Shown: positions 2,182 through 53,467 of the stretch, one piece after another
Numbering within the stretch: position 1 is the first letter of the stretch
Layout: each line of letters starts with the position of its first letter
Origin: Bryoerythrophyllum caledonicum
Taxonomy: Eukaryota > Streptophyta > Bryopsida > Pottiales > Pottiaceae
Direction: 5' to 3'
Assembly (NCBI GenBank): GCA_963971425.1
Contig: OZ020517.1
Coordinates: forward strand, 9,488,501-9,552,500
DNA: 64,000 nt
Program-made: the position numbers and the translations under genes
Notes under the pieces: generated by a model
What the model was told of the DNA's origin: nothing
What the model saw: the letters and a program-made list of their open reading frames with translations, nothing else
Databases searched by the model: none

Positions 2182-2189
2182 TATAAAAA

Positions 2190-3790: not shown

Positions 3791-3792
3791 AA

Positions 3793-4115
3793 TCTTATGC
3801 ATGATTGAGGATGCCATTTGGCTTAAGTAACATTGAGTGAACGTTCCAACGCGTGTAGCTGAAAACATTTGGTCCTTATATTGGGAAATTTGTCAGAGTC
3901 TATCTTGACAATTTTGATCTGTAGGGTGTGCACCTTAATCCTACTATGCACGCGAGAGCAACGTCTTAGAGAGCATGGGTTCTCATTAAACCTTGAGAAA
4001 TATAGACATGGGTTTGACAAATGACAGTTATTGAGGTATGTGGTGTTCAAAAGAGGGATAAAAACCAACCTAGTTAAAGTGCAAGGGATTGGAGTTTGGC
4101 AAACCTCCGGCACAT
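3793..4115 (+). pseudogene. Ty3/gypsy reverse transcriptase, C-terminal half (remnant)
   Basis: The translation opens with RMPFGLSNIE, then TFQRV, FGPYIGKFVRVYLDNFDL and HLNPTMHAR. These match the MPFGL-TNAPATFQR and YLDD blocks of Ty3/gypsy enzymes. The catalytic YLDD reads YLDN, so the second aspartate is lost, and stops are frequent. It continues the protein that breaks off at about 2181. Confidence 0.75.
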
Positions 4116-8190: not shown

Positions 8191-8940
8191 ACATTTTCTC
8201 CTCAAAAAGTTGAAACACTATATCAAAATCCAAGATTTAGGTGCACAAGAAATAAGACATAAAAATACTTTATAACCTCAAGTTAAATCTCATAATTCAA
8301 TCCATCAAATTCACATGTTGTAAAAACGAATTTTCACTTGAATAAACTGGGAATATACAAATCATTCATTCAATGTATTTTCACAAGGTGGAAAAGAAAA
8401 TACATTTATAGTCATCACGGCTTATACAAGAGCAACAACACATATCTTTTATAAAATCCTTAACTCTTGAAAATCCTAGAGAATTTCTCACCAAAAACTG
8501 TTGAAAATGAGTCATTCAAATGGGAAAAATGGGGGATATTTTTTCAAAATTAAAAAATTCAACTTCAATTGTAATTTGATTTACACTATTGGGAACAAGT
8601 GCTTATAAATTTTCACAACATTTGACCACACAAATTGGAAGATTATAAAATTTGATGTGAAGGTCAATTTTTTTATTTTTTTTCTTATTCTAATAACATG
8701 ATCAAACTTTAACTTCACTTGATGTCAGCTTTTACATTACAAATATTTCAAATATTCAACAATTCTAGTGCACATGTTATTAGTTCCTTGTACATAAACT
8801 TTAGAGGTAGAGGAAAAATGAAGCATTTTCAAATACATTGTGCAAGAAAGGGAGGTTAAAAAATTCATTATAATGTCTTCTCATTGTTTAGTGCAATTTG
8901 TTATGTTAATGACATAATTATAATGTTCATGTGATGTACC

Positions 8941-14989: not shown

Positions 14990-15096
14990 CTCGAACCAAA
15001 CTCCACCGCCACACCACCTCCCTCACCCACAGGGCTCACCTCCTAGAATCATGCAACAAAAGCTCCGGCTTCAACCCTGGCAAACCAACTCCACTG

Positions 15097-15299: not shown

Positions 15300-15934
15300 A
15301 GCCAGATCCCGAGGACGCTGCCCGTGCGAAGCCTTCGCTGCGCGGCTTGACCCCTCTAACCTTTTTCACCACCTTTTTTACTTCCCCCCCCCCCTCCAGT
15401 TTTTTTTAAAGATGTTTTTTATTCCATCACTGATGCCACAAGGCGAGGTTGGACAGCGGCGTTATTTTCCCCGGGGGAAGGATGTGATTACTTTTTACCT
15501 TTCCTCCCTCATTTCTAAGGGTTTTTCTTTATTTCTTTGCGGGTGTTCTTTATTCTATCACGAGGTTGGAAAGGGGGTGTCAGGCGTTTTTTTTTTTTTT
15601 TTTTTTTTTTGGGGCCCCGGGGGCGGAAGGGAAGGGAGATTGTGTGGGTTATTTTGGTGGTGGGCCCCACTTGGAGGGTACCAGCCGAAAAGCTCTTGAA
15701 GGAATAACTCACTGTAACTTTTGGGGCGGCCTGCATCACTGAAATAGTAGGGTTGGTTGGGGGGCGTTGGTTGAATGTGGGAGACAACGTTGAAGCTGTG
15801 ATGGATTCTCAAGAAGCACATGTGGCTCTACATCAGCTCCTTGGTGATGGCCGCTTAGAATTGGTGGTTTTATGATATTAAATCCTCTTCGAAAGGCATG
15901 GATAGTGGGGCGTTTTATGACAAGTTTGTGTTAT
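15300..15934. other. Upstream region with homopolymer runs
   Basis: Contains a C run near 15384-15394, a T run of about 24 bases at 15587-15610, and G-rich blocks around 15611-15700. Frames across it look like low-complexity artefacts. No gene recognised. Confidence 0.45.
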
Positions 15935-16715
15935 CTCGATTGAGACTTGTAAAGTTGCAAACTCACAAAATTTCATAGACTTTGACCGCACAGATTGAAA
16001 GATCATAGTGTTTGAAGTTAGAGAAAGGGTTCAATTTCTTCCCTACGTTTAGTGGATAGATAGACTTTGACTTCACTTGGTGTCCAATTTTTGCACTACA
16101 CAAGGTCCAAATTCGTCACCATCGTGCTAAGCATGATAGTAGTTCCTTGTATACCAATTTTTAGAGGTAATCAAAGGGTGTAGCATATTCCAAAAAAGTG
16201 TGCAAGGAGTTGAGGTCCAAATATTGTCAATTCACATTATATTTTTTGTGAACTTAATATGTTTAGGAATGAGAATCCAAATGGTCAAAAAGAAGTTTAC
16301 ATCACATAATGCGGTGGGGAAAATAAAAAGTAAAAAATATGAAGATCTCTAAGTTTTATGTGGAAAGGAAGAAGTCTTTTTGGTACCTTGGCCGTCAATG
16401 TGTGTAAATGTTTGATTTGGGTTGATATGCTTTTTAAACTAAAGACTAGAGACTATTTTGACAATATGATAGGAAATAATATCATTTGCTAGTGTAGAAA
16501 ACAGAACATTCAATAGAGTGTCCAAGCAAAAGTGTGGAGTTGCCCGACTTGCTGCTCTCTCCATTCGAACTTCAAAATCCTATTATTTTTCATTAAATGT
16601 CGTATTTAGAAGGGAAAAAATGGACTTGCACAAAGGTTTTAGTAATGTCCATCTATAGTTTTAAAAAATTCAAAAAAGAATGTTATAAATTGCCACAGTA
16701 GGAACCTACCCAAAC
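15935..16715 (+). mobile_element. TTAA element (long family), partial copy
   Basis: Carries the family blocks CTTTGACCGCACAGATTGAA, TTGCACTACACAAGGTCCA, GTGTAGCATATTC and TTTGGTACCTTGGC in the same order as the complete copies, but the left terminus is missing and the right end is decayed near AGGAACCTACCCAAAC. Non-coding. Confidence 0.55.
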
Positions 16716-21616: not shown

Positions 21617-21646
21617 ATAAATTGCAACATTCAAAAGTTCACTTTC

Positions 21647-22352
21647 TTAGTGGGATTCCACACTTGAATCAAGGACCAAACTCCATTGAAGACCAAACTA
21701 TGCCAAGATGCCAAGTTTTGGAGTTGAAAAAAAAAACAGTAAAAATATATAGATTGCAGAGTCGGGGTCCTTGTAGTGTGAAAGCCCAAAGGCTGTGTTT
21801 GAGAGGCCGTGATATAAAATATTTGATAAATCCTAAGTCAATTTTTACTTTTTATTTTTGGAAAATTACCTCTCACTTTCTTTAGTCATGGAGCCTAGAA
21901 GGCAATACATTTTTAGTCAGAAAAAGAAGATCAAGAAAATGGCCAAAATGCACCCTTTAAAAGAAATCCAGCAACAATCACTGGCTAGAAAAAATTTAGG
22001 TAAAGGAATTAGTGAAAAGAGTCACGTAAAAAATTTGTATAAAAATAAGTTATTGTTTCAATCTAACGTGTGAGATCTTGTCAGATTTTGAACATTTTAA
22101 TGTAAAGAATGATTGGCACCTCAAAAAGAGGTGGATTTTCATTCTTGTATGACCCAAACTTTCTTTGAGAGGCCAAACTCTTAGCGCCAAAACTCTCAAA
22201 AATTGTTGCCATGTAGACAAAAATTGTTGCCTCTCAACCTTGGTCCCTAGTGTGAAAGTTGAGAGTCCAACCAAGACTGATTTGAAGCTCTAGACCAATC
22301 AAATTACTAGTAAGATCAACCTTTCAACCTTTGGTGAGAGTATGAAACCGCC
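21647..22352 (-). mobile_element. Diverged PIF/Harbinger-like MITE, itself interrupted
   Basis: In reverse orientation it matches the MITE at 34591-34942. Shared blocks include CCATTGAAGACCAAACTATG, GTTTTGGAGTTG, GACCCAAACT, AATTGTTGCCATGTA and ACCAATCAAATTRCTAG. The match breaks at about 21745 and resumes at about 22086, so a roughly 340-bp insertion lies inside. The ends are eroded and the target duplication is no longer clear. Confidence 0.6.
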
Positions 22353-24124
22353 CGTATGAGTGTGAGTACTGGCATGTGTGTGTGTGTGACATTGTATGAA
22401 ATGTCTATGCAATATGAATTTGTTGGATATTTCAAATAGAATAGTGCTTTGTCTACGTACTTGGCTATAAATTGTCATTGGTCTAATAGCTTGGTAGTAT
22501 CCAAAGACTATCTTTTTACTAATGTTGGTTGCCCTTTAATCACCAACTTAAGGACCTTGGACTATTTTTGGTAAGGTTATATCTAAGAAGAAAAACAACA
22601 TTGTTTCTACAAGATTTTTATGAAGATTACAAAAAGTTTACAACATGAAATTGATATTTGTCAATTTTATTCAGACAACTTTAAAGTGCAAACAATAACC
22701 TTTGATCCATGTCCAAATCCCAACTTCGTATGTTCAAACTTTGGCATTCTCAAAACTTCTACTCGCGAAAAAATTCAAACCCACCACCTTTAGGTTCTAA
22801 GCTTAGCCAATAGCAAAGAGATCAAGAAAGAAATGAGTATTGCAAATGAAGGGCACAAGTGAAAAGGAATTCTTGTACCAGAAGTGGGTTTGGTCGATCG
22901 GCCTTAAGGGTTAAGTGTCCTAAGACCATCTTTCCACTCACACCCAAATGTATACGAACACATATCGCCATGTGTACGCCAAGTTACTTCCACAGCATGT
23001 GCCTCCAACTGAGGCGATGCCAAATGCAAGCAATGACAATTACATGATAAGCTTGGAAAGTGGGATTCAATCAAGTGGGAGCCCATGTCCATGGTACGAT
23101 TTCTACACAGAGCAGACGCTCCTGTAACAAAACTGTTGCCAGAGATCTTGTGCCTTTGTGTGCATGCCTAGGGATCCCCGAAGAAAATCCCGTCGTTGTA
23201 GTGGACTAGGAGGTGCACCTGATATGTGGGATCACCTCATGACAATCATTGGGATCTCGCACAATGCGATGCTCTGTCACTCCCACCATAGTCTTACATC
23301 TTGAAATCCTATTAATTTGTTTTACAAAAACTGTTGTCATTGGATTTTTTTTTTTAAAAAAATTTGGCACAAGGAAAGCAAGCTTTACTCGCAAGGAAAG
23401 AACAAGAAACCAAACAAAAAGCGCGCCAGGGCCGGCCATGCAAAAGGAAAGAACAGACCCCTAGTGGAACCCACGAATTCAAACCACCTTGTTGCCCTGT
23501 TTATTGCACACAGCCTCAAGACAACCCCAATTGGCGTCGAAACAAGTCGTGGCAACAATCCTACTTTGATCAGAGTTGGCTACCAACACTCACCCCCACG
23601 CCACGCAACCATATTCAATTAAGCCCTTCCAGATCACACTGTGCATCTTATGCACACTCCACCGCTGTTGGTTGAAGACCCAATTGTACCTGGTGATCCA
23701 AATGGACGTGACACGCCTCAGGGGAGCGACAATCTACTAATACCTCTAAACTTCTTGGTGTTATCATTGCTTTGAGGTGATATACATGTAAGACTTAAAT
23801 TTGATTTTTTAAAAATGGTTGTAATTGCTTCAAGGTTATCACCTTTAGTCATTTGATATGTGTTTTGTGTGCAATTTTAACCTTGAGAAAAAAAATTCAT
23901 GACAAAAACAATTTTGTTGTAGATACTCTAGAACAGATTTGCAATCACTAATGAATTGTGTTTACAAAAAAGATTGTGTATTGGCATGTTTGAACCTCAT
24001 TTACTTTGAACAAATATTTTTGAAAATGTTGCACTCCTCCATCACTTCTAAAACTTTGGTGCATGGAACTAGCATAATGTACAACATAATAGTAGTTGAA
24101 GTAGATGGTCTTGGTAGTATATAA
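22353..24124. other. Unclassified; contains a LINE-like fragment
   Basis: The 23440-23640 interval resembles 39476-39640 at the DNA level, for example CCCCAATTGGCGTCGAAAC against CCCCAGTTGGTGTCGAAAC. The second site lies beside a plant L1-type zinc-binding remnant, so both may be pieces of one LINE family. A solitary CCTTAAGGGTTAAG at about 22902 looks like a TTAA-family end. No gene recognised. Confidence 0.4.
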
Positions 24125-30750: not shown

Positions 30751-31209
30751 ATGCATCCAAAGATAACACTTAGAATGACGGGAAAAAACAATATCACAAC
30801 AAATTCCACAAACAAAAACATAAACACGTACATTAATAAAAACACTAAAACCAGAAACATAAAAACAAAAAAACACCTAGAATATATACAAAAAAACCAA
30901 AAACAACACACTAAACCATCACACTACAAAATACTATTATTACTATGTGGAGATATAGAAACCAATCCAGGACCCATGCCTAATGTATTAAAAAGACATC
31001 CCACAACACATAAGAAAAACGCCAAAATTTACTTCATACCAAATACCATAAAACTACAACCGGAATACAAACACATTGCTCATACATTCTCACCCCTTTT
31101 TAAAACCACACATATACTACATCAACTACACAACACAACACATCCAAATATTGCCCAATATATACAACAAAAAATACGCATCCATCAACACATATTTTCT
31201 ACGCCCTAG
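30751..31209 (+). pseudogene. LINE ORF2 N-terminus with 2A-like ribosome-skipping motif
   Basis: The ATG at 30751 opens 152 codons. Residues 67-75 (30949-30975) read GDIETNPGP, an exact fit to the D-(V/I)-E-x-N-P-G-P consensus of 2A peptides, directly after a hydrophobic run (KILLLLC). In 2A peptides the ribosome fails to join the final Gly and Pro, releasing the upstream peptide (family knowledge). Animal LINEs of several clades carry 2A motifs at the same place, the ORF2 N-terminus before the endonuclease. The upstream 66 residues are Lys/Asn/Thr-rich. The frame ends at TAG 31207, but the adjacent frame is open from about 31190, indicating one frameshift. Confidence 0.75.
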
Positions 31210-32507
31210 TAGTTACCATCCACCCAAACATAAACGAATGTAACCGTCTTCTAAATTTACAAAACCCGAATATAATTACATGGACCAACACACTACTACG
31301 AACCTTATCAAACTTACAAAACCCACCCGAAAGACATATTCATACCACACACCCTTATACAAAATTTCTTGAAGATAACCTAAATATCATAAACCACGGA
31401 AACTCAATACATAAAGAAATATACGACTTCTTACACAGTCAAACTGAACCTCCGTCAAACTTCACAATAAAACAAAAATTCCCTTACCTTCCTAACAATC
31501 TAATTAATGAGTCACTAAAATATTTAAACCCCATACCAGAATATATTCATCCACCCCCCCCACCCTCTTACCTCCCTCCACAAAACCAAAGTATTAACTC
31601 AAACAATAGAGACGCAAACATAATTACATGGAATGCCTCATCTCTAAACACCGCTCTCCCTAGCCTACAAGCCTTGGTCACATATACAAACACGTCACCG
31701 GCAATCATAGTTATACAAGAAACAAAACTATCGGCCACAAAATCTACTAAATACATACAAAACATTTTTCAAGACCACAAACTTATTTTTAACAATACAC
31801 ATGCACTAACAAGGTGCATACAACAACGCAGACCATACACACCGAGCCGCGGTGGCCTCCTTACACTAATACACAAGAACTACGCTTTTCTACGCAACAT
31901 CAAAAAAATTCCTACCCGAATGCACATATCTCCTTACCTTCAAATAATTAAAATCGTTAATCAACCACTACAACCATGGTTAATCTTTCATATGTATATG
32001 CCCTCCCATCCCGAAGATACTAGATTTATTATAGACATACAAAACACCATTACATCTCAAACAAATCAAAACCCTAACCATACCTACCTGTTATGTGGAG
32101 ACTTCAACAGAGACATAGCTTTAATCGGTCGACAAAACGGAAACCATAACACCCCTCCTCAAACCATAGACTACCAATGGCGCCACTTCACAGAAAACTT
32201 AAACTTTACCTATATAAATACTGATACACAATATTCCAAACAAGGCGGATATAACTACAGTGATTGGAGCCTAATAGACAGCTTTTACATAAATACAAAT
32301 AACATTACACAATACACCTCTACAACAAATAAAGATACTACTCTCAACTCGGATCACTCGCCTATACAACTTCACATCCCAAATAACACACTAATTAGTC
32401 GCACCCCTATAATCACAAACAAGGATACTATCAGGATACTAAACCCTATCCCAAAAGATAATTTAGAAAAATTCAACACAAAGTTCTTTGAAAATAACTC
32501 CATATAA
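31190..32507 (+). pseudogene. LINE ORF2 linker and APE-type endonuclease domain
   Basis: One frame is open from about 31190 to the TAA at 32505. The first 130 codons are an unrecognised linker ending in a proline run. The endonuclease spans about 31590-32400 with blocks NIITWNASSL, IIVIQETKL (catalytic Glu), RGGLLTLI, YLLCGDFNRD (Asp-Asn pair), SLIDSFYI and LNSDHSPIQL (Asp-His). This is the full set of APE/exonuclease-III-like motifs, so the domain nicks target DNA in the active element. All catalytic positions are visible here. Confidence 0.85.
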
Positions 32508-35220
32508 ATTAACTCTCTCATAAACACCCTTGAAAATAACAACCAACTCTCCCCAACACAATGGCACGAAACGTGCCACACCCTAGATACACTTATAAAT
32601 AATATCTCCAATACATTGGAACAAACTTGTAAAGCCCAACCAATACGACAAATGACAAACAGATCATCACAACAAGGTGGTTATCTATCCCGCAAACTAT
32701 CCAAAAAATGGAAACAACACATAACCACATACCATATAATACAAAAAACTATTAGAATCGTAAAAAATAACCCACAATGGCGTAATCACCCCATATGTAA
32801 CGACTTAACAACCTTGCACCATACCCAAATCCCTGCCCCACCCCCCCCGGACTTACCCCATGAGACATAGATAAAAGACATTGCACTAATCGCAAAAAAT
32901 GCCAAAATACAAGCCCGGAAAGTAACTACAAATTACTCCGGAGATAATATTAAAAAAGCCATCTCAAAATAGAGACAATTATACAAAACTAGCCCTAAAA
33001 AAATAAATAGAAGAGTTTAAAAAAAACTAGAATCCCCACCACTAGATTGTATCACTAATCAACATCATAACATTCTAACTAGCCCGGAAGATATTGCAAA
33101 CGAAATATTCAACCAACAGAGTCAAAATAATAGACCCACAGTACCAACATGCAACTACCAACCACAACATTCTATCGAATGCACATGCGCAGTACGCCAA
33201 TATCCATGGCATGACCTAGATGGATTTACCTTAGACAAACGAGGAAAACCTGAAATTCCTCTACACACATACTTCAACAGAGCCATATATGACACATGTC
33301 TCCGCAACCTCGGAAATAACAAAGCCCCATGGCCAGACCGTATACCGAACTCAATACTCAAAAACATGCCCCCAAGATTTAATAAATTACTATTTCTATT
33401 TTTCTCTCATTGCTACAAACAAAAACAAATACCAGCCTCATGGAAAACAGGTGCAACAATTTTATTATACAAGAAAGGGGATCCTACAATATTACCAAAT
33501 CATAGACCAATCGCATTAGCCAACACAATATATAAACTCTACACCAGTACACTTACAACAATATCATCCTCATATGGTGAAAAGTTTAAAATCCTACACG
33601 ACAGTCAGAAAGGATTTAGAGCAGAAAGAAGCACTTCCAGACAAATACAAACTATAATAGCGGCACTAGAAGACCCACGATTCACAAATCAAGACATATA
33701 TATTTTATATGTTGACTTCAAAAACGCCTTTGGCTCTATAGACCACACTCGATTATTAGCAATAATGACTGATATTGGGTATCCAAAAGATGCAACTGCA
33801 CTAGTTGGAAATATCTACTCCCAATCATCTACCTACTACACCGGTGAACACTTTGGTAAAACTAAGCCTATCCCCATTCATAGAGGCACCATACAAGGAG
33901 ACACCCTTAGTCCATATCTATTCATTATATTTTTAGAACCACTACTTAGATGACTAGAGCGAGGCAATAATGGATACACATTTGGTACATCACAAACCAC
34001 CATAAACCCTGCTGCCTACGCCGATGACCTTTCTACTATAACTAACAAAATAAAATCATTACAAACACAAATTGATAAAATTGACAGATATTGTAAATGG
34101 ACTGGTATGGACGTAGGTGTCCCAAAATGCGCCGCCACAGGATGCCCAAACAAATCCAAAATGAACCCAACTACATTTAAAGCCCTAATGCAAGCTTCTA
34201 ACATCAACTACCGAGGTCAACCAATCCCCATACTACACCAAAACGAAGCATATGTTTACCTAGGCACAAATCTTGTTCCATCTCTAAAATGGAAAATCCA
34301 AACTCACACTACGACCATAAAACTCATTAAACAATGCAAAGAATTAACAACATGTCCGGCCACTATGAAACAAAAAATTAAAATGGTTGACACCGTAATA
34401 TGCCCAGGTGTAGCATACAGTTTCTACGCTGTACCATACTCTATGCCAGCCATTAAAAAACTGGACCAAAAGATCAGAGCCATACAAAAAACCATTTGTG
34501 GCATGCCAAAATGCATGTCAAATGCAATAACCCAACTACCACATAACCTATTTGGACTCGAAGCTTTCTCCCTCAAAAATGCCTACCTAAGGGGGGTTTC
34601 ACACTAGGGGCCAAGCTCGAGGGGCCGAGCAAATCTAGCAATTTGATTGGCCTAGAGTTGAAAATCGGCCCGTGGGCCTTCACACTAGGGGCCAAGGGCC
34701 AAGGGCCGAAGGGCACCAAAATGCTTACATGGCAACACTTTTTGAGAATTTTGGTGCCAATAGTTCGGCCCCTCGAGGAGAGTTTGGGTCCAACAAGAAT
34801 AGAAACCCAAACTCTTGCCGAGGGGCCGAACATTTTCTCATTAAAATAATTTTAATAAATTTTTACAACTCCAAAACTCGGCCCCTCGGCATAGTTTGGT
34901 CTTCAATGGAGTTCGGCCCTTGGGCTTAGTGTGAAACGCCCCTAAGATGCATAGGGGAACAATTACAAAATGCCTTAAATGACAAAGGTAGGCTCGGAAA
35001 AATATATAATGGGCTAACACATTATGTTCTTGCTCAATATGGTGGGGCCGAAAATATACCTAGAATTAAAAGCACAGATTGCATAAGATCACCAATAACT
35101 CGAACACTCTTCCTATTAAAACACGTAGCTAAAATTCACCTTAAGAGTACACTCCCAAATTTTCTATTTGACCAAACATCATTAGAAAAAGTATGGCGGC
35201 AAGAAAACACTAAAGCATAA
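32508..35220 (+). pseudogene. LINE ORF2 reverse transcriptase (interrupted by a MITE)
   Basis: Continues in the same frame as the endonuclease to 34587, with stops at about 32868, 32970, 33018 and 33951. Reverse transcriptase blocks: NKAPWPDRIP, TGATILLYKKGD, PNHRPIAL, DSQKGFRAERST, YVDFKNAFGSIDH, GTIQGDTLSPYLF and the catalytic AYADD (about 34017). The thumb/connection follows, with YLGTNLVP. At 34588 a 352-bp MITE breaks the codons for Tyr-Leu-Arg. The protein resumes after 34945 (CIGEQLQNAL) and ends near 35220 in this frame. The same region in copy 2 has no insertion. Confidence 0.85.
34591..34942. mobile_element. PIF/Harbinger-like MITE inserted in the LINE reverse transcriptase
   Basis: TAA (34588-34590 and 34943-34945) flanks 16-bp inverted ends GGGGGGTTTCACACTA and GGGGCGTTTCACACTA, one mismatch. 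Removing 352 bp plus one TAA restores continuity with copy 2. The interior is GC-rich, with repeated GGGGCC(A/G)A blocks. Short frames inside are incidental. A diverged copy lies at 21647-22352. Confidence 0.85.
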
Positions 35221-35320: not shown

Positions 35321-36607
35321 ATGAATAATGAGGACTTCAAAACCTTCCACTTTACCCCATCTAAATTGATCAAGAGTGCCCTAAATGTTTCCAAACAACT
35401 TTTCTGTCATCCAACATGCCCCACTACATGTGGTATTTCTTGCAATATACATACATACTCTCACATACTCCAAAACCCATTCATCACCATCAACAACAAC
35501 ATCCCCCCAAGAACCACCCCACCACCAATACATCCTCCCAACCCCTTATACCCATACCACCCCCGCCCCCCAACATACATCACCAAAAACCCCACGACAT
35601 ACCCTATTAACAACATCATACGCCATGAACATATACAACATATAGATACCAATGGAATACAAAATAGCTATATAAAATACCTATACCAATGGCAACACAA
35701 CAACAATACATTCAATAAATGGCTTCCTCAAAGAAACCTCTTTCCAACACACGACTGTAATACCTCCACACATAACACCGAAAAACTAAAACAATATTAT
35801 CAAAAAATTAAAGATAAATTCTACTCAGAAATCATTCAAATCCATCACCCCCAAGAACAATTACAAGACTCAAGATCAGTAACTCCACCTATAACCATTC
35901 CACTCCTAAACATATATACCATAGAATGTAACCCCGAAAATGATATTATCACAGTCCTGAACACAATAAAAATAGAAAATAATAAAGCCCATCTATACAA
36001 AGCAAATGGCCGATATCTACACACTATCCCTACTACTAGACTCCAATGGCTATGGAATCAATACAACATGAAACTACAAACTCCTACAAACATTGAACCA
36101 ACAACCCAACCATTTGAAACCGAACTAATTTGGCTATACCAAAGATATAAATACCATATTCCAAAAAATAATCCCCTAAAAAATGCACAATACTCAATAT
36201 CCACACCTATCCTAGACTCATTAATCTTGTCCTTTAACATTGAACAATCATACTTCTCCTCCCCCGTCACATGCTCCACCAAACTAAAAAAATTCTACTC
36301 ACCTTTTGAAAGAGATAAAATATTTGGCTCCTTGGGAAAGGCCTTTGACTACAAATGGACCAATAATGGTATAGCTCACCCCCACAATGAGGAGGAAACT
36401 CAACAAGCACTACATTGGGCCCGTCTTGCTGCTAAAAATAATCCACAACACACATCTACACTCATTATCACACCAGACAAAAATTGGTACCAAAACTTTA
36501 ATCCACAATCAAGCCCATTTGCAGACTCCCATATCATTGCAACATTTGAAGCAGACTCAATTCCATACGAAGAACCTACTATCCCACCTGAGCTAAAAAA
36601 AACCTAG
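35321..36607 (+). pseudogene. LINE ORF2 Cys cluster and PCIF1/CAPAM-like methyltransferase domain
   Basis: 428 codons open. Residues 29-44 hold C-x3-C-x3-C-x3-C-x2-H, followed by a proline-rich linker. From about residue 225 to the end the sequence follows the PCIF1 methyltransferase order: a WLYQRY helix, FSSPVTC (about 312), FYSPFERDKIFGSLGKAFDY (about 323-344), GIAHPHNEEE (about 350), then a strand LIITP with a following W, and FEADS. PCIF1 enzymes, which make m6Am at mRNA caps, have SPLN, FGS-G and NPPF at these places. Here NPPF is replaced by an HPHN-like sequence, so SAM-dependent catalysis is doubtful. The fold call rests on motif order only; alternatives are an unrelated connection domain or a degenerate pseudo-enzyme. 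Confidence 0.5.
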
Positions 36608-36734: not shown

Positions 36735-37457
36735 ATGGCCCCACCAACACCTATACAAACACCAATCAACAGAAACAAAAAATGGTCAAAACTAAATTAC
36801 AACAATAATACACTAGAATACATATTATCACTCCCCCCCCTCCCGGACTACCAAACTCTCACCTCACCAAAATTTGAACCCGCATACAGCTACTATATTG
36901 ATGGCTCCTTCAAACCACCAGAACAGACTAGTCCGGGTAATTGGCGTAGAAAAAAAGCCGGTTATGGAATATACAATTCTACGAAAGAAATCAAATTAGC
37001 CAAGAGACTGCATGGATTACAAAATATCCTCAGAGCAGAACTCATGGCCATCGACAAAACACAGGAAATTGTTACAACAAAATACAATAACGAACCAGCG
37101 CACATATTCACAGATTGCATTAACGCACTAAACTTATTAAACACCCCAATAACACACCCTACTCACCACAATAGCCACCCCGACCAAGTCATACTAAAAT
37201 CTATGGTTCAAATGATATTAAAGCGAAAACAAATTACAACCCTCCACAAAGTTCGAGCACATGCCAACATAGATGGTAACGAACAAGCAGATAAACTAGC
37301 AAAAGAGGGCCGAGAAAAATCACACAAAAACGCCAAAGACCCACACGAACATGCACACGCCACCCCACATTACTTCCAAAAAGAAGAGTGGCCCTCCAAA
37401 GAAGACACCCCTGATAAAGGCCCGATCAGATTTTTGGACAAATACCTTCAAAAATAG
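36735..37457 (+). pseudogene. LINE ORF2 RNase H domain
   Basis: 240 codons open. All four acidic catalytic residues of RNase H are visible: Asp in YYIDGSFK, Glu in ILRAELMAID, Asp in HIFTDCINAL and Asp in GNEQADKLAKEG, with the HKVRAHANIDGN histidine loop in place. RNase H removes the RNA strand after reverse transcription. The frame differs from the preceding domain because of a frameshift near 36600. It ends at a stop at 37455-37457, where copy 2 reads through. Confidence 0.85.
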
Positions 37458-38300
37458 GACCTATATAACAACCTTGACACAATCTCAGATAACTTCCCTA
37501 ACATTGAAAAATGGACTAACAACAACAACATAGACAATGAACTATCCACAAATTTCTGGAAAAACCCCATCATCACCGACTCACAAATAACATGCCTTAT
37601 CAAATTCCGTACCGGACAATATATGGGAAACGCCCAAAAACAACTCTTCTTTGGAATTGAAAGATTCCCATCCATTACATGCCCGACACATGGCTACATG
37701 TTTTACTCAAATGCCATAACCATCACATACACTCCCTAATTGTCAAAAGACATAACAAAGCCGAATGGGAAATTCGTAAATTAATCACCTCCCATAATAA
37801 ATCAAGATGTTTCATCCTCATGAATGTCGGCACCTTTAACAACAACCCACAAGAAAACACAGTCCCAAAATGGCTACTCCCATGCCATGTGAGACCCAAT
37901 GATGCCATTGCAATGCTCGCCTGAAACCAGACATACTCTGCGTTAGAGGGCTACCATACAATGACCCTCCACCCGACCACGTTAACCAAGACTACACCAT
38001 TCAATTCATAAAATTTACATATTGTAATGACAGATTCTCCCCATAAGCAATTGAAAACAAAATTAATAAATACCAACCCCTTATTGATGACATCACTACC
38101 CTTGGATGGAAAGTAGACCCCCTTGTTGTAATCACAGCAGGTGCTCGAGCCACCACCTTTATCCCATCTATGAAAAATCTAGAAAACACCTTCAAAATAC
38201 CTATTGATACAATTACGAACACTTTCAAGAATATTAACATCATTGCCATACAATATGCTATGTCCATCCTCCTTCATAAACGGAAAATTGAAAACAACTA
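37458..38300 (+). pseudogene. LINE ORF2 C-terminal zinc knuckle / nuclease-like module, broken
   Basis: Matches the intact C-terminal segment of copy 2 in several frames. A deletion of about 20 bases near 37680 removes the C-x2-C part of the zinc knuckle, leaving DTWLHVLLKC. Further on, pieces corresponding to the candidate PD-(D/E)xK region appear with frameshifts and stops. Not functional here. See copy 2 for motif details. Confidence 0.7.
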
Positions 38301-38399
38301 AGCCCTTCCCGATACACAAGACCCCTCATAAACTTACCCCCCCCCTCTTCACTTTGAAAACACACTTACGTTGCAAAAACACACCCTCCTTTCCATCTC

Positions 38400-38552
<153 letters not shown>

Positions 38553-44747: not shown

Positions 44748-45842
44748 ATATAAATGAAAATATCTCAACTCATTATTTAAGTACTACTGTGAACTTTATG
44801 TTTAGTGTAGGCACATAAATGCTATAAGTCTTACCCCCATGCATACTTTTACCAACCATGTTGACAATGATCACCCCTTTTAAGTAATGTAGATAATTAT
44901 ACTCTCTTGTAAAACTCATCATCAAAAGTAAAATGTTATAACGCTTTTAAATCATAAAGTACCACCACCCTAAACATCAAATTTAGTGTAGGGAAGCTAA
45001 TTCTCTTTAAACGAGTCTGCTCATATTGAACATTAACGTACAGTAAGAAAAAGTTCAGCATCGTATATTAAATAATGTAATCCTAAAATATCGAAGGATG
45101 ATGGTTTTCTGGTCCAAACAATTGAGAATATAATTGGGAATAATGTATCTATTTTTTAAAATAAAAAACAAAAAGACGTCTCATTTGTCATATTTGGGTG
45201 ACGTCTCGTTTTGTCGTATTTGGGTACCGTCTCTATCGCAAAGGACAAAACCATAAAATAACCAAAAGGATAAAAAGAGAATTGACTATAAAAAAGAAGT
45301 AAGCCAATGGGAAAATGCCATGTCAATAGTGTGTACTCTCCACGTATGGTATAAAATGGATGATACCCTGGCCCTTACATTTCTCAATTTCACTACCTGT
45401 TAAAAAAAAATAGAAATGAATAACAGAATAAAGAAGGTGAAATTACTATTAGTATTTGCATGAATTTGCATGATCTGTGGCCTCTTTCACTACTTTACTC
45501 ATTTTCATGTGGCCATTTTACTTTCTTAAAATTTTCCATTTTACTTTCTTCAAAATTTCCATTTTACTTTCTTGAAATAATGTGGTAAAATCAAATGAGA
45601 AATGTATGTTTTGATATTACCATATGAAGTGGTCACTTTTGGGCACTACTTGCCGAACTCATTGTTTTTCTAGATTGTAGTGGTTCGGCCACAATGGGTA
45701 TCATAGGTATCACTAGGCATTATATGTGCATAAAATAGGCATTATACGTGTATGAACTTGGCATTACATGGGTATCACCAAGACAAAACTCTTGAAATTT
45801 CCAAAATTTTATCCATTTTAATTGATAATATACAAAACTAAC
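44748..45842. other. No gene recognised
   Basis: AT-rich. Three loose copies of a GACGTCTC/TATTTGGGT unit occur at 45175-45235, and ATTTTCCATTTTACTTTCTT repeats at 45530-45575. The end (45620-45840) is an arm-like copy of the fold-back element at 43795. Confidence 0.4.
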
Positions 45843-46392
45843 ATGAAACTTAGAGATCTTCATATTTTTACATTCTTTTTCTTTTTCAACAACAATGTGT
45901 CATGTAAACTTTCTTATTAACCATTTGGATTATCATTCTAAAACATATAGAGTTCACAAAAAATAAAACGTGAATTGGCAAATTTTGAACCTCCACTCCT
46001 TGCACAATTTTTTAGAATATGCTACACCCATTCTTTACCTATAAAAATTGGTGTACAAGGAACTACATTGTGTTTAACATGATGGTCAAATTAGCCATTG
46101 TGTAGTGCAAAAATTTGACACCGAGTGAAATCAAAGCTTGTTCATCCACTCGGCACAAGGAAGACAATGAATTGTTTCCTTTACTTCAAACACTGTAATC
46201 TCTCAATTTGCCCGGTCATAGTTTACAAAATTATGTGAGTATAATACTAAATACGTAATAATTAAGATCCTACCATTAAAATTGGAAATATAAGTTTTGT
46301 TTTCCTTCCTTACTCATTGCACTAGTAGCAACAATTTTGAAGTGTTTTTGGTGTGAAATTGTCAAAGAAATTTAGGGAATAAACTCTTTAAT
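45843..46392 (-). mobile_element. TTAA element (long family), partial, reverse orientation
   Basis: Shares with the neighbouring full copy TAGAGATCTTCATATTTTT, CCTCCACTCCTTGCAC, TTTCAAACACTGTAATC and GAAGTGTTTTTGGTGTGAAA in the same minus-strand order. The terminus has decayed to AATTTAGGGAATAAAC. Non-coding. Confidence 0.6.
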
Positions 46393-46812
46393 ACTATTAC
46401 ACATAGTTTAAAAACAACAAATTAGTTGTCGATAACTTTCAAATAATGTGGTTGTATAGTTGAATTCCTGCTCCACAAATATTTTAAATAGTAGTAAAAT
46501 GAATTTCACCATCAGATTTGAGTTTGTTTTTAATAACTTTCTCATTACCAGATGATTAATTAATTTCATTCGAAAATGGAATTAGGAACACAAAAAATAT
46601 ATTAAAAACATCCTATTCATATGTTAAAGCTCTATGTTTTTGCTACCATGAGTGACATAAGCATTTGGCTATGCATTCGCAAACAATGCCATGATTTAGG
46701 ATCCCAACGTACCATCTACTTAATGTTCCATACTACATTTTGCATTAGTACCATAACAAAAACAACCAACTGAAAATACAACACAAATTTGTGTAGTGGG
46801 TGGATTAACTCT

Positions 46813-47764
46813 TTAACCCCTAAGGACCAAGTGTCGAAAAAGGGCTTTTTGAAAAATTGGTCAGGTTCCTATGGTGTCAATTTCCAACATTCCACTTTGA
46901 AATTTTTACTATAGAAAGACATTACCAAGACCTTAGTGGGAAAACAGTTTTTTCCTAAATTGGACATTTGATGAAAAAGTTATAGGGTTTTGAAGTTTAA
47001 ATGGGGAGGGCGGGCACCTCGGGCACCTCCAAAAACTTTTGATAGGACACTCTATTGAAAGTGAGATTTTCAGTACTTGCAAGTAATATTATTTCCCTTC
47101 ATGTTGTCAAAAACAAATTCTTGTCTTTTGTGAAAAATAGCATACCAACCCAAGTCAAACATTTTCACACATTGTCACTCATCGTCGGGCAAGGTACCAA
47201 AAAAACTTCTTCTTTTCCACATAAAACCTAGAGATCTTCATATTTTTCACTTTTTATTTTTTCCACAGCAATATGTAATGTAAACCTTCATATTAACCAT
47301 TCGGATTATCAATCGAAAACATATTAAGTTCAAAAAAAATCAAAGTGTGAATTAACAAATTTCGAGCCTCCACTCCTTGCACACTTGTTTTGAATATGCT
47401 ACACCCTATCTCTACCTCTAAAAATTGGTGTGTAAGGAGCTAACATCATGCTTAACAAGATGGTAATAGATTTAGACCTTGTGTAGTGAAATTTTTTGAC
47501 ACCAAGTGAAGTCAAAGTCTGCTGATCAACTAAACGCAGGGAAGAAAATGAACCATTTGCTTGACTTCAAACACTATAATCTTTCAATCTGTGCCGTCAA
47601 AGTTTATGAAATTTTGTACATGTATTACTTAATAAGTCTTTATTGAGATCCTACAGTCAGAACTAAAAATCAAAGTTTTTGTGACCTTCTTTATTCGTTG
47701 CACTAGAATCCATTAATTTTGAAGTGTTTTTGGTGTAAAACTGTCTTGGTACCTTAGGGGTTAA
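46813..47764 (-). mobile_element. TTAA element (long family), full length, 952 bp
   Basis: The best reference copy. TTAACCCCTAAGGACC at the left and, read inward from the right, TTAACCCCTAAGGTACC. It runs opposite to 8941-9971. No transposase or long frame is present, so it depends on an enzyme from elsewhere. Only the TTAA target and CCC-type ends suggest the piggyBac superfamily. Confidence 0.75.
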
Positions 47765-47824
47765 GGACGAGGGGAGCCAAAAGCAGATGTTACTCACATG
47801 GTTATAGGGTTTGTTCTTAAATTG

Positions 47825-48050
47825 TTAACCCGTAACAAACCAAGGCATTTTAGAGGACTCTCTAATCCAATGATTAAAAGCTGCCAAAATTATTATACAG
47901 AAATAGGATGCATTTGTAGGATCTTTTTCTAAAATTATATAAGATGATGTGGTAAAATTTTGTGAATTTTGATTGTACAGATAGAAAGATAATCACACTC
48001 AAATAAACAAAATTGTTTGTTGAGGGGACACTTGGATCTTTAGGGGTTAT
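47825..48050 (+). mobile_element. Short TTAA element (about 225-bp subfamily)
   Basis: Starts TTAACCCGTAACAAACC and ends TTGGATCTTTAGGGGTTAT. It matches 25428-25650 and 44525-44747. Its right TTAT is also the left end of the next, LINE-interrupted element. Confidence 0.65.
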
Positions 48051-48313
48051 CCTCTAAGGTACCGTGACAATTTCACACCAAAAACACTTCAAAATAGTTG
48101 GATTCTAGTGCAATGAATAAAGAAGGAAACAAAAACTTTGATTTCTAGTTTTGACCGTAGGATCTCAAATACAACTTATTCAGTAACATACTCACAAAAC
48201 TTCATAAACTTTGAATGCACAGATAGAAAGATTATAGTGTTTAAAGTCAAACAAATGGCTCACTTTCTTCCCTTCGTTCATTGGATCAACAAACTTTGAC
48301 TTCACTTGGTGTC

Positions 48314-48562
48314 AAATTTTTGCACTACACAAGGTCTAAATCCATTACGATTCTGTTAAGCATGACATTAGTTCCTTATACACCAAATTTTAGAGGTAGG
48401 GGAGGGGTGTAGCATATTCAAAATAACTGTGCAAGGAGTGGAGGTTCAAAAATTGCCAATTTTCTTTTTAATCTTTTGTGAAATTAATATGTTTTAGATT
48501 GATAATCTGAATGGTCAATAAGGAGATTTACACTACATATTGTTGTGGGGAAAAAAAAGTAA
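48314..48562. repeat. Left copy of an approximately 245-bp direct repeat flanking LINE copy 2
   Basis: Nearly identical to 52724-52964, with shared private variants such as GGTAGGGGAGGGGTGTAGC and a few substitutions plus one indel of about 10 bases. It lies immediately 5' of LINE copy 2. Best explained as a target-site duplication. The partner is listed separately. Confidence 0.7.
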
Positions 48563-48582
48563 TTCATTAAGATAAAATAGAC

Positions 48583-49428
48583 AAATTTTGTCTATGGACC
48601 GGGATGGAACTTGGGGTCCAAAAATGTGCTATAATTGGATGCCCAAACAAATCCAAAATTAATCCGACCGCCTTCCAAGCCCTCATCCAAGCTATTGATA
48701 TCCACTATCGTAACCAACCAATTCCGATTCTCAACCAAAACCAACCCTACATATACCTTGGAATAAACCTAGTCCCATTGCCAAAATGGAAAATTCAAAC
48801 TCACACTACTACCACGAAACTTATCAAACAATGCAATGAACTTACACTATGCCCGGCCACATTGCAACAAAAAATAAAAATGATTGATACTGTCATACGA
48901 CCGAGTATCTCATGTAGTTTCTATGCGGTACCTTACTCCATACCCACCATAAACAAACTTGATAAAAAAATCATAGCCATACAAAAGAAAGTATGCGGAC
49001 TCCCCAATTGTACGCCTAATGTCATAACACAACTCCTCCACGAACTATTTGGATTAGAAGCTTTTTCCCTCAAAAATACCTATCTACGTTGTATCGGAGA
49101 ACAACTCCAAAATGCACTTAACGACAAGGGACGACTAGGACTAATTTACAGTGGACTCCTTCGGCACATCCTCGCCATCTATGGAGGAGCACAATACCTC
49201 AAAAGACTTAAAAGATCTGATTGCCTTCGGTCTCCTATTACCCGCACACTTTTTCTACTCAAAACAGAAGGCCAAGCATTTCTAAAAAGCACACTAGAAG
49301 ATTTCCTACTAGGCCCTGCACCGCTTGAACAAAATTGGGCAAATGAAATACATAACCTCCCTAGACTTGACAGACAATTATCCGCCAAACTCCTACAAAA
49401 AAAAAATCCGCAAACATTACCGATCTAA
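48583..49428 (+). pseudogene. LINE copy 2 reverse transcriptase thumb/connection
   Basis: Corresponds to copy 1 from WTGMDVG onward: GVQKCAIIGCPNKSK, YIYLGINLVPLPKWKIQTHT and LFGLEAFSLKNTYLRCIGEQ. It shows the uninterrupted reading across the point where copy 1 carries the MITE. It ends at a frameshift in an A10 run at about 49398-49407. Confidence 0.75.
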
Positions 49429-49460
49429 AACAAATTACACTACCAAATGGAACACAACTT

Positions 49461-49925
49461 ATGGATGACAAGAGCTACAAAACATTCTATGGTATTCCTC
49501 ACAAATTAATAAAAAGTGCACTAAATATTGCTAAACAATTATTTTGTCAACCTCCATGCCTCCCTATATGCCAGAACCCTTGCACCATCCACGCCCCACC
49601 CTACACACTTAAAGACCCGTACATCATTGGCCACAATGACACCCACCCCAACATCAACCTCCCATTAATCCCTCCAAATCCGACACATCCAAGACCACAT
49701 GCCCCTCCACCACACATATTAAAAAATCCGTCCATGCACTCAATAAACAACATAACCGCACACAAACATAGAAAGTACATTGACTCTAACAACATAGCAA
49801 ACAATATACGTCATACCTATGCCATTGGCCCCACAATAACACCACCTATACCAAATGGCTCCCGCAAAGAAATCTTTTCCCTTGGCACAACCCAAACGCT
49901 TCCTTACATAACACTAAAATCCTAA
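49461..49925 (+). pseudogene. LINE copy 2 Cys cluster and proline-rich linker
   Basis: C-x3-C-x3-C-x3-C-x2-H at about 49545-49592 (FCQPPCLPICQNPCTIH) matches the cluster in copy 1 exactly in spacing while the residues between differ, which indicates constraint. A proline-rich linker follows. Probably a metal-binding motif; its role is unknown. Confidence 0.55.
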
Positions 49926-50185
49926 CACAATACTACCTTAGAACTCAAAAGAGTCACTACTTGAATATCATACAATTACACCACCCCCAAGCACAACCTT
50001 GAGATAGAAGATGTATCACGCCACCTCTTATTATCCCCCTCCTTAACATCTTCAAAACCAAATGCAACCCTGAAACTGACATCCTGGCACAAACAAATAC
50101 AATCAAAATACAACAAGACAAAGCCCACATATACGAAGGTAATGGTAGACACCTAATAACCATACCACTCGCTAGACTACAATGG

Positions 50186-50968
50186 TTGTGGAACCAATAT
50201 GACAACGCACTCCAAACCCACATTAACATCGAACCAATACCCCAAACATTTGAAACCGAAATTGTTTGGCTATACCAAAGATATAAATATCAAATACCCA
50301 ATAATGACCCCCTTAAAAATGCACACTACATAATACCCGATCCTATCTTAGACTACCTAATTACATCTCTAAATATCACACACTCATACTTCTCATCCCC
50401 CGTTACATGCTCCACAAAAATTTCAAAATTCTACTCTCCATTCAAGCGTGATAAGATTTTTGGTTCTCTTGGAAAAGCTTTTGATTATAGATGGAGCGGA
50501 ATAGGCCTTGCACACCCTCATAACGAAGAAGAAACACAACAAGCAACACATTGGTCACGCCTAGCGGCAAACAACGATCTCAACCACAACATCACCATTA
50601 TTATTACTCCCGACACTCATTGGTACCACAACTCTAACCCACACTTAGGCCCATTCCCGGACTCTCACATCATAGCACTATTTGAAGCGGACTCTATGAC
50701 TTACAAAGAACCCACTATACCACCGCAAATACAAACACCCCGCCTTGAACCAACAACTCTACGTATCCTATGTATACACCACCAAACTCGAGAGATAGGT
50801 ACTCTAAAAAACCTCACTCATTTCACTTTGATAGCAAAAAATCTAAACATTAACAAGGTATACACCGCAATTGCCTCTCCCACACCCATTCCAATCCGTG
50901 TAAGCCGTAACAAAAATGGTCTAAAACCCCCCACACAAACATCTCCGCACTACCAATTACCGAATTGA
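50186..50968 (+). pseudogene. LINE copy 2 PCIF1/CAPAM-like domain
   Basis: Contains WLYQRYKYQIP, FSSPVTCSTK, FYSPFKRDKIFGSLGKAFDY, GLAHPHNEEETQQ and TIIITPDTHWY in the same order as copy 1, then a further strand LRILCIHHQT. The NPPF-type catalytic motif is again replaced by an HPHN-like sequence, so the change is a lineage feature and not decay of one copy. A preceding segment from about 49926 belongs to the same domain in other frames. Confidence 0.5.
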
Positions 50969-51480
50969 GTCTCTCCCTCCCCGATTACCAAATTAATACA
51001 GACCTTAAATTTGACCCCAACTTTAGCTACTACACTGACGGCTCCTTTAAAAAACCAACCAAAGTAAGCCCGGGACATTGGCACCAAGAAAAAGCCCGCT
51101 ATGGGGAATACAATTCAACTAAACAAATAAAATTAGGCAAAAGACTACATGGACTCCAAAATATTCGAAGAGCCGAAATGATGGCTATACACAAAACCCT
51201 TAAGATAATCACCACTCAATACCCAAACGAACCAGCTCATATTTTTACAGACTGCATAAATGTATTATATCTCCTTAATACACACATTAAACACCCCACT
51301 TTACACAACAGTCACCCGGATAAAACTATCCTTACATCTATGGTCACAATGCTCTAAAACCGTATACAAATTACTACGCTCTACAAAGTCCGAGCTCATT
51401 CTAATATAGACGGCAATGAACAAGCCGACAAACTAGCAAAGGAAGGAAGAGAAAAACCCACAAGAATGTCGAACACCCAT
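50965..51480 (+). pseudogene. LINE copy 2 RNase H domain
   Basis: SYYTDGSFK, IRRAEMMAI, HIFTDCIN and GNEQADKLAKEG give the Asp-Glu-Asp-Asp set. A TAA at 51355-51357 and a frameshift near 51455 disrupt it. Position and order agree with copy 1. Confidence 0.8.
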
Positions 51481-51533
51481 ACGAACACGCCCATGCCACC
51501 CCATATTACTTTCATAGATATGAATGGCCCTCT

Positions 51534-52493
51534 ATGGGCGAAACTCCCGATAAAGGCCCCATACGATTCTTGGACAAATACCTTAAAAAACATGATCTTG
51601 TAAATAACCTAGAAAAACTTACAGAAAACTTCCCCAATATTGATAAATGGACCGGCAACCCAAACATTCACAAAGTATTGTCCAACAGTTTTTGGAAAAT
51701 CCTCATTATAACGGATCCACAAATCACATGCCTAATCAAATTCCGCACTGGACAATACATGGGTAATGCCCGTAAACAACTCTTCTTTGAAATAGAAAGA
51801 TTTCCTACAATAACATGTCCACTTTGCAACACCACAAACCCGGATACATGGCTACATGTCTTACTCAAATGCCAAAACCCCCATATACAGTCACTAATTG
51901 TCAAAAGACATAACAAAGTCGTATGGGCTATTCGTAAACTACTTATATCATCAACCAAATCCCGGTGCTTCATTCTCATGAATGCCGGTACCTTTAATGA
52001 CAACCCACAAGAAAATACAGTCCCTCTTTGGCTATTACCATGCATTTGTCATACTCAAAGATGCCACTGTAATGCAAGATTCAAACCAGACCTACTATTT
52101 ATTAGAGGACTTTCATACAAAGACCCCCCACCAAACCACATAGACCCTAATCTCACCATTCAGTTTATTGAATTCACATATTGCAATGATAGATTTTCTC
52201 CAGACACTATTGCAAACAAAACAAATAAATACCAACCATTACTTGACGATATTAAAGCACTAGGATGGAAAGTCGATCCCCTCATTGTCATCACCGTGGG
52301 TGCTAGAGCCACCACCTTCATTCCCTCAATGACAACCCTTGAAGAAACATTTAAAATCCCCATCACGTTAATCAAAACCTCTTTCTCAAATATTAACACT
52401 ATTGCAATTCAACATGCTATGTCGATACTCCTGCATAAACAAAAACTTGAAAACAACCAACCCCTTCCTGACGCATTGCACCCCCCTCCATAG
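51534..52493 (+). CDS. LINE copy 2 C-terminal zinc knuckle and candidate restriction-like nuclease
   Basis: The only fully open version of this module (to TAG at 52491). A zinc knuckle C-x2-C-x9-H-x4-C lies at about 51815-51871. About 70 residues later comes FKPDLLFIRG (PD), then IQFIEFTYCND (acidic) and KTNKYQPLLDDI (Lys), followed by GWKVDPLIVITVGARATTF. The order zinc knuckle, then (R/K)PD...D/E...K, is that of the C-terminal restriction-like endonuclease in R2/Dualen-type LINEs. The spacing from PD to the acidic residue (about 26) is longer than I would expect, so the call is tentative. Confidence 0.5.
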   Translation: MGETPDKGPIRFLDKYLKKHDLVNNLEKLTENFPNIDKWTGNPNIHKVLSNSFWKILIITDPQITCLIKFRTGQYMGNARKQLFFEIERFPTITCPLCNTTNPDTWLHVLLKCQNPHIQSLIVKRHNKVVWAIRKLLISSTKSRCFILMNAGTFNDNPQENTVPLWLLPCICHTQRCHCNARFKPDLLFIRGLSYKDPPPNHIDPNLTIQFIEFTYCNDRFSPDTIANKTNKYQPLLDDIKALGWKVDPLIVITVGARATTFIPSMTTLEETFKIPITLIKTSFSNINTIAIQHAMSILLHKQKLENNQPLPDALHPPP

Positions 52494-52683
52494 ACCTACA
52501 CTCGCATTCCACCTTACACGCCCTCCCTCTTTTGAGAACTTTTTGGAGCTAGGGTCCTTTGATTTTGGTTACTTGTTACTCGGTACATAGTGCCTATTCT
52601 CGAAAGGGGGAAGTAGTTCCATACTACTAACCCATGCCCGGTGGGCATGAACTTAGTGGTGGAATGAACGGACACTTTATTCA

Positions 52684-52723
52684 CGCCAGTCCCCTACGGG
52701 GACCGGCGTTCTTCATCTTCTTC
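52684..52723 (+). promoter_or_regulatory. LINE 3'-terminal hairpin and TTC-like tail
   Basis: CGCCAGTCCCC and GGGGACCGGCG form an 11-bp stem with one mismatch and a TAC loop, followed by TTCTTCATCTTCTTC. Equivalent hairpins close the tail copies at 9431, 25235 and (weaker) 43688. In other LINEs such 3' structures are recognised by the reverse transcriptase at priming (family knowledge). Confidence 0.75.
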
Positions 52724-52964
52724 AAATTTTTGCACTACACTAGGTCTAAATCCATTACCATTGTGTCGTTAGTTCCTTATACACCAAAGTTTAGAGGTAG
52801 GGGAGGGGTGTAGCATATTCAAAACAACTGTGCAAGGAGTGGAGGTTCAAAAATTGCCAATTTGGGTTTTAATCTTTTGTGAAATTAATATGTTTTAGAT
52901 TGATAATATGAATGGTCAATAAGAAGATTTACACTACATATTGTTGTGGGGAAAAAAAAAGTAA
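52724..52964. repeat. Right copy of the direct repeat flanking LINE copy 2
   Basis: Repeats 48314-48562 directly after the LINE tail, then the TTAA element continues (AAAAAATATGAAAATC) to its right end. See the left copy. Confidence 0.7.
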
Positions 52965-53467
52965 AAAATATGAAAATCTCTAAGTTTTATGTGGAAAAGA
53001 AGAAGTTATTTTGGTACCTTGCCTGACAGTGTGTAAAAATGTTTGACTTGGATTAATATGCTATTTTTCACTACACACAAGAACTTTTTTTTTGACATTA
53101 TGATGGGAAAAAATATTACTTGCTAGTATTGAAAATCTCACATTCAATAGAGTGTCTTAGCAAAAGTTTTTGGAGGTGCCCAAAATGCTCGCGCTCTTCA
53201 TTTGAAATTCAAAACCCTATAACTTTTTCATTATATGTCGGATTTGAGAAAAAAATTGTTCTCCTACTAAGGTCTTAGTAATGTCCTTCTACAGTAAAAT
53301 TTCCAAAGTGGAATGTTGGAAATTGATACCATAGGAATCTGCTCAAACTTTCAAAAAGCCCATTTTTGACACTTGGTTCTTTAGGGGTTAAAGTGGCAAA
53401 ATTTCCCAACAATGCCACAGGTCACAAAGCTAAAGATGCTACTAATTTCAGTTTCTGTATGAATGTA

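Follow-up and report, generated by a model that had tools for sequence, protein, structure and literature searches.

A PCIF1/CAPAM-like methyltransferase core with a replaced catalytic-loop motif inside a non-LTR retrotransposon of Bryoerythrophyllum caledonicum

What does a segment resembling the cap-specific m6Am methyltransferase PCIF1/CAPAM do inside the polyprotein of a LINE, and can it still be an enzyme there? The question is raised by two related element copies, A and B, that lie in one stretch of the B. caledonicum genome, referred to throughout as the window (the whole of the DNA analysed, 64,000 nucleotides). The preliminary description of this DNA had placed the segment between reverse transcriptase (RT) and RNase H and had read the motif order of PCIF1 in both copies; the order of the Pfam domains bears out the position, and every motif named is present in frame in both copies. 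The features to which we refer are listed below.

30937..30975 (+): peptide LLLCGDIETNPGP in copy A, upstream of the endonuclease, identified from the sequence, which we take to be 2A-like
31623..32153 (+): APE-type endonuclease domain, copy A (Pfam Exo_endo_phos E = 4.7e-6)
33480..34217 (+): reverse transcriptase, copy A (Pfam RVT_1 E = 1.5e-16 over 33480-33950)
34593..34942 (+): insertion with inverted termini (GGGGTTTCACAC / GTGTGAAACGCCCC), copy A, between RT and the PCIF1-like frame
35612..35743 (+): chromodomain-like module, copy A, just 5' of the PCIF1-like domain (match in genome locus L009 transferred via alignment A1)
36077..36532 (+): PCIF1/CAPAM-like methyltransferase core, copy A (Pfam PF12237 E = 1.4e-12, 48 bits)
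36891..37313 (+): RNase H domain, copy A (Pfam RNase_H E = 1.9e-12)
37299..38325 (+): CCHC motif and restriction-like-endonuclease-like (RLE-like) tail, copy A, in broken frames (tblastn match to the tail of copy B)
48571..52499 (+): extent of copy B relative to copy A, 5'-truncated (blastn and tblastn self-comparison)
50228..50611 (+): PCIF1/CAPAM-like methyltransferase core, copy B (Pfam PF12237 E = 2.1e-9, 37.7 bits)
51555..52451 (+): CCHC motif and RLE-like tail (PD...E...K), copy B (alignment A4)
36131-36151 in A, 50267-50287 in B (+): WLYQRYK, in-frame sequence
36251-36274 in A, 50387-50410 in B (+): YFSSPVTC, in-frame sequence
36293-36337 in A, 50429-50473 in B (+): FYSPF-x-RDKIFGSLG, in-frame sequence
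36374-36388 in A, 50510-50524 in B (+): AHPHN at the NPPF position, in-frame sequence (HPHN in copy A is 36377-36388)
36467-36490 in A, 50603-50626 in B (+): ITPDxxWY, in-frame sequence

The two copies are identical at 136 of 192 residues (71%) over the domain, and both are broken, copy A by the insertion in the RT region together with frame breaks and copy B by its 5' truncation. An in-frame stop at 33951-33953 splits the RT of copy A, whose second part (34002-34217) matches RVT_1 below the cut-off (E = 3.8e-4). The insertion in copy A is about 350 bases long, with a possible duplication of CTAAG, and by self-comparison it matches 21645-21732 and 22094-22356 (minus) within the window. A long (CT)n run occupies the 3' part of copy A at about 38400-38540. 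Elsewhere in the window, a family of related repeats recurs many times in both orientations (6800-9800, 15900-16700, 45800-48500 and 52700-53400 by self-comparison), and an open frame on the minus strand at 14024-15022, in a locally GC-rich stretch, resembles by eye a plant YUCCA-type flavin monooxygenase.

The earlier assignment of the domain to PCIF1/CAPAM holds under profile comparison. Pfam PF12237 (PCIF1_WW) matches both copies above its curated cut-off of 31.1 bits, no other domain in the libraries searched gives a better match, and a profile search of the PDB and an hhalign comparison agree. A WW domain reading suggested by the Pfam name is rejected: in the passages of PMC7641849 that treat the family, its authors' analysis makes it a CAPAM-like methyltransferase and not a WW domain, the name being a misannotation. 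Among genome copies, PF12237 matches 25 of 25 in an alignment of a longer region (A1) and 34 of 34 in an alignment of the domain only (A5; best E = 2.5e-15), the latter built from every distinct stop-free domain sequence except L011 (34 of 35), with 14 further copies (stops or fragments) set aside. Neither the L009 domain reversed nor either of two shuffles of it gives a PCIF1_WW match, and with these controls empty chance composition is rejected. Compared with 177,635 PDB sequences, the A5 profile finds only two at E <= 10, namely 6irx (zebrafish PCIF1, E = 0.0046) and 6irv (PCIF1, E = 0.094), the latter taken to be the human protein; each match is weak by itself. The species of these two entries are swapped in a figure legend of PMC10544176. 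With the longer A1 profile there are four PDB matches, 6irx (0.08), 6irv (0.63) and two CBX4 chromodomains (0.47 and 0.52), and the PCIF1 and CBX4 matches each cover their own part of the profile. By hhalign, the 34 copies align with two vertebrate PCIF1 segments over 111 columns (probability 91%, P = 1.1e-6, 29% identity), the A-N-P-P-F of PCIF1 falling on the A-H-P-H-N of the element domain.

This identity is low, and copy A alone, searched with phmmer against the PDB, reaches 6irx with E = 0.11 only, behind 7s69 as the top row (E = 0.006), so that the similarity could be called spurious or laid to a misassembled host gene. Calibrated Pfam matches in every A5 copy, the empty controls, a domain profile that finds nothing but PCIF1 in the PDB and the spread of the matches over many contigs all speak against this, however; we regard the chance of either as close to negligible. 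The 7s69 match itself (residues 94-181) lies outside the domain and is to an unrelated protein, and it was rejected, as were weak matches to Thioredoxin_8 and Sel1.

Structure prediction adds a ranking to these comparisons. A model of the larger region (427 residues, 25 sequences) has a mean pLDDT of 46.9 and finds no significant Foldseek match, and a model of the domain only (192 residues, 34 sequences) has a mean pLDDT of 53.5 and a pTM of 0.50. When this low-confidence domain-only model is searched against 350,542 PDB chains, ranks 1-3 all go to entries for zebrafish PCIF1 (probability 0.91-0.97, E 0.0075-0.01, TM 0.38-0.42, rmsd about 17), with several other methyltransferases further down the list, mixed with unrelated proteins; neither model has a match among the PDB chains at E <= 0.001. 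Taken as modelled, the ranking supports PCIF1 homology and does not prove the fold. Because both models are of low confidence, a Rossmann-like methyltransferase fold is weakly supported, and since both are poor, the pocket residues are not readable from them.

The domain belongs to a large family of elements. A PF12237 search of the 437 Mb genome (894 contigs) yielded 2,614 candidates, and all 150 that were scored exceed the cut-off; 33 of these 150 rows share an open-frame length of 3,087 aa to the residue, which suggests recent amplification. Other genome copies of the element consist of one uninterrupted frame. In L009 (C1:3619835-3629825) the single frame runs from 14 to 9277 and encodes, in order, a low-complexity N-terminal part, a 2A-like peptide, an APE endonuclease, RT, a chromodomain-like stretch, the PCIF1-like domain, RNase H and a C-terminal tail containing CCHC and PD...E...K motifs. 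The 2A-like peptide, GGDIETNPGP at ORF residues 738-747, precedes the endonuclease; a second, degenerate one (GGDINTRPN) lies upstream. A scan of the whole L009 frame detects only RT (RVT_1 E = 7.2e-26, and 5.4e-27 as a piece), PCIF1_WW (PF12237 E = 1.4e-11) and Chromo, and the APE endonuclease (Exo_endo_phos E = 6.6e-7) and RNase H (RNase_H E = 2.9e-12) emerge in scans of pieces.

In the tail, all 13 copies of alignment A4 have the CCHC motif and, after it, P178, D179, E206, K222 and K225. The L009 tail has no convincing match to a Pfam family or PDB entry; by its motifs it is RLE-like and a putative restriction-like endonuclease, the PD...E...K pattern being one of the R2/Dualen literature. 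In 18 of 20 loci (L009-L028, about 10 kb each) and in window copy B (near 52680-52755), the 3' end shows a conserved GC-rich stretch and then a TTC-rich run in place of poly-A; such an end is not seen in L018, L027 and window copy A. Downstream of L020 a similar antisense tail is seen by eye, which suggests SINE-like partners. PMC4640811 ascribes APE together with RLE in one element to Dualen and RNase H to Dualen/RandI, and non-A simple-repeat tails are given for all 8 green-algal RandI families in the table of PMC3747384. The present element resembles Dualen/RandI in its APE, its RNase H and its simple-repeat tail, and has an RLE-like part where Dualen has RLE; from its domain content and 3' tails it is likely a Dualen/RandI-like non-LTR retrotransposon.

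If the homology is secure, the state of the active site is the next part of the question. The preliminary description had read NPPF as HPHN-like in the two window copies, and the family as a whole repeats this reading: NPPF occurs in 0 of 49 copies, the site being AHPHN in 37, AHPHT in 8, and AHPHS, ADPHN, APPHN and AHPNN in one each. Thus A-H-P-H stands in 46 of the 49, and no copy retains either the N or the F of NPPF. The 49 comprise the two window copies and 48 fetched genome loci (34 best-scoring rows and 14 picked for long frames), less L026, which duplicates L009 in this region; best-scoring rows should favour the copies nearest to PCIF1, yet NPPF is found in none. The HPH codons vary synonymously (the first H is CAC in 41 copies and CAT in 6), HPH is about as conserved as the adjacent motifs, and the F-G-S, F-S-S-P and C columns in common with PCIF1 are invariant (49/49). 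By this pattern the HPH replacement is kept and not decayed. In PCIF1 itself, disruption of NPPF lowers activity, as reported in the relevant text of PMC6318281, and APPA and SPPG are the usual inactive forms in the passages of PMC10544176 that use them. Because NPPF is lost and NPPF mutants have reduced activity, canonical adenosine methylation by the element domain is unlikely; since the FGS, FSSP and C columns kept in PCIF1 are invariant here, binding of the methyl donor SAM may persist.

The preliminary description had left a choice between a pseudo-enzyme and altered chemistry; the loss of NPPF stands, and an altered but active enzyme is a rival reading. Such an enzyme, a living methyltransferase with HPH for NPPF as its motif IV, would methylate the RNA of the element or its new cDNA, for instance in evading silencing. 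A replacement that is nearly fixed, and no less conserved than its neighbouring motifs, is what a changed but live active site would produce, the invariance of FGS and FSSP-C fits it as well, and there are examples, described in PMC5890265, of retrotransposons whose methyltransferases evolve under purifying selection. It has to contend, however, with the absence of both N and F from every copy, exactly the residues changed in the inactive APPA and SPPG mutants (as used in PMC10544176), and we consider it decidedly unlikely.

We calculated dN/dS by the Nei-Gojobori method for L009 against the other copies, decayed ones included, and give medians; every pair includes L009, and the comparisons are not independent. 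Copies 70-95% identical to L009 form the mid range and those below 70% the distant class, in which dS is saturated (>2) and ratios are indicative only. The earlier claim that the domain is conserved by selection is supported by medians of 0.161 (36 mid-range copies) and 0.107 (7 distant copies, dS saturated) and by synonymous codon changes; judged by these substitutions, purifying selection on the domain is clear. RNase H has medians of 0.106 (33 copies) and 0.133 (5 distant copies, dS saturated), and the other parts of the element have 0.061 (RT, 15), 0.101 (APE, 13), 0.108 (EN-RT linker, 11) and 0.064 (RLE-like tail, 19). For the stretches that flank the domain the medians are 0.173 (36), 0.179 (31) and 0.192 (32) in the mid range and 0.147 (5), 0.231 (7) and 0.205 (11) in the distant class, with dS saturated. 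RT is under stronger selection than the domain, and among mid-range copies selection on the flanks is almost as strong as on the domain. Over 187 residues the most distant stop-free copies (L004, L018 and L027) retain 55-58% identity to L009, and the domain is therefore older than the split of these subfamilies.

These ratios bear on a further reading, by which the domain would serve only to place RT against RNase H, as a structural spacer or connection domain, and would bind no ligand. It sits exactly between the two, and its mid-range ratio exceeds those of RT, RNase H and the RLE-like tail and is close to that of the flanks, as a spacer would have it. A spacer would not need, however, the 58 of 163 columns that are kept at at least 94%, many of them also kept in PCIF1 (FxSPxxC, FGSxG, A-x-P), and in the distant copies the domain falls below each of its flanks, although dS is saturated there. 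We think this reading unlikely.

A further possibility had been put forward with the domain, that of a module for cap recognition or cap methylation, and this idea is not supported, the helical cap-binding and WW domains not having been found. 5' truncation is a cost for elements of this kind, and a domain that reads the m7G cap or the RNA 5' end could favour full-length element RNA. According to PMC10544176, PCIF1 acts on m7G-capped RNA, its helical domain binds the cap and its WW domain binds the polymerase (CTD). The match of the element domain to 6irx, however, begins only at chain residue 287-288 of 496, and PCIF1 past about residue 422 is likewise unmatched. In L009, the 373-residue stretch that precedes the domain has no PDB match at E <= 10, part of it looks chromodomain-like, and the helical cap-binding domain is not detected there by sequence comparison. 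No WW family is found in the whole L009 frame or its pieces by Pfam scan, in which the whole-frame scan also missed APE and RNase H. Only the methyltransferase core is recognisable, which argues against cap reading; we rate it as very improbable.

The stretch just upstream of the PCIF1-like domain (L009:6512-6790) is chromodomain-like. Pfam Chromo (PF00385) matches 14 of the 25 A1 copies (best E = 9.7e-4), with L009 scoring 15.8 bits, under the cut-off of 25.1; over a short region in 12 copies, Chromo matches 9 and PWWP 3. Against the PDB, the profile of these 12 copies lists 13 sequences at E <= 1, of which 8 are chromodomain proteins and 5 are cryptochromes, and no single one of these matches is significant. 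Weak matches to CBX4 point the same way. The low-confidence 427-residue model has strands at 90-100, 106-118 and 121-128 and a helix at 138-154, a block with pLDDT mostly 62-86, and its Foldseek search gives CHD1 at E = 1.4 only. It would seem unusual in its own right for a non-LTR element to have a chromodomain. Together with such a chromodomain-like reader, an active site rebuilt around H-P-H could bring a new nucleic-acid chemistry or mode of sensing to reverse transcription, such as a completion of insertion gated by SAM or by the 5' end; we consider this improbable, an outside chance.

We consider it probable that the domain is a captured PCIF1-type core, no longer canonical, that selection has kept as a nucleic-acid-binding module. 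On this account, a Dualen/RandI-like family would have captured a PCIF1/CAPAM-type methyltransferase core long ago, and, as far as one genome indicates, once, between RT and RNase H. The captured core, which comes with no detectable helical or WW domain, would then have lost NPPF, in whose place there is now almost always H-P-H, and purifying selection would have kept it as a non-catalytic or differently catalytic module. It would most likely bind nucleic acid, either the RNA of the element or its RNA:DNA product, and target-primed reverse transcription may be the step at which it acts, next to RT and RNase H, presumably with no transfer of methyl groups.

A zebrafish PCIF1 segment compared exon by exon with the B. 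caledonicum genome revealed no clear host PCIF1 gene among the 150 of 1,191 candidates that were scored, a search that could miss short exons; the best match has E 6.6e-4 (28 bits, about 30% identity), and several of the rows are known copies of the element. Because no clear host gene appeared among these candidates, it may be in such elements that the PCIF1 fold has persisted in lineages of this kind. A viral contig collection contained no relative of the domain or the RT, and collections of prokaryote genome contigs and phages contained no relative of the domain (one phage match at 7e+0), results which say little on its distribution in plants. Among the papers listed in literature searches, titles and abstract openings yielded no report of a PCIF1-type core in a LINE, and Repbase or InterPro may list the architecture unremarked. 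Its presence extends the range of enzymes recruited by mobile elements, and it offers a natural experiment on a methyltransferase fold after its catalytic motif has been replaced and the replacement held by selection.

Among known systems, the element differs from Dualen/RandI in the PCIF1-like and chromodomain-like modules that it adds, and in its host: the table passage of PMC3747384 places RandI under green algae only, whereas the present host is B. caledonicum, with a YUCCA-like gene that suggests a land plant. With PCIF1/CAPAM the domain shares L-x-x-RY, FxSPxxC, D-x2-FGSxG and the A-x-P of the catalytic loop, then a helix after this loop and a strand ending in P, but it has HPHN/T/S for NPPF, has no detectable helical or WW domain, and resides inside a retrotransposon polyprotein, whereas PCIF1/CAPAM is a free nuclear enzyme. 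The Drosophila PCIF1 homologue is, in our tentative reading of PMC10544176, reported as a catalytically dead relative of PCIF1, but it is a host gene and not part of a mobile element. There is a precedent in methyltransferases captured by other retrotransposons: DNMTs under purifying selection occur in LINE, DIRS and Gypsy elements (SymbioLINE-Dnmt, SymbioDIRS-Dnmt3 and KnitGypsy-Dnmt3), and DIRS elements with Dam-like enzymes are also reported, according to the sections of PMC5890265 that describe them. Those captured enzymes are cytosine methyltransferases or Dam-like, with the key residues of KnitGypsy-Dnmt3 intact in the same sections, whereas the element described here carries a PCIF1-type core whose catalytic motif has been replaced.
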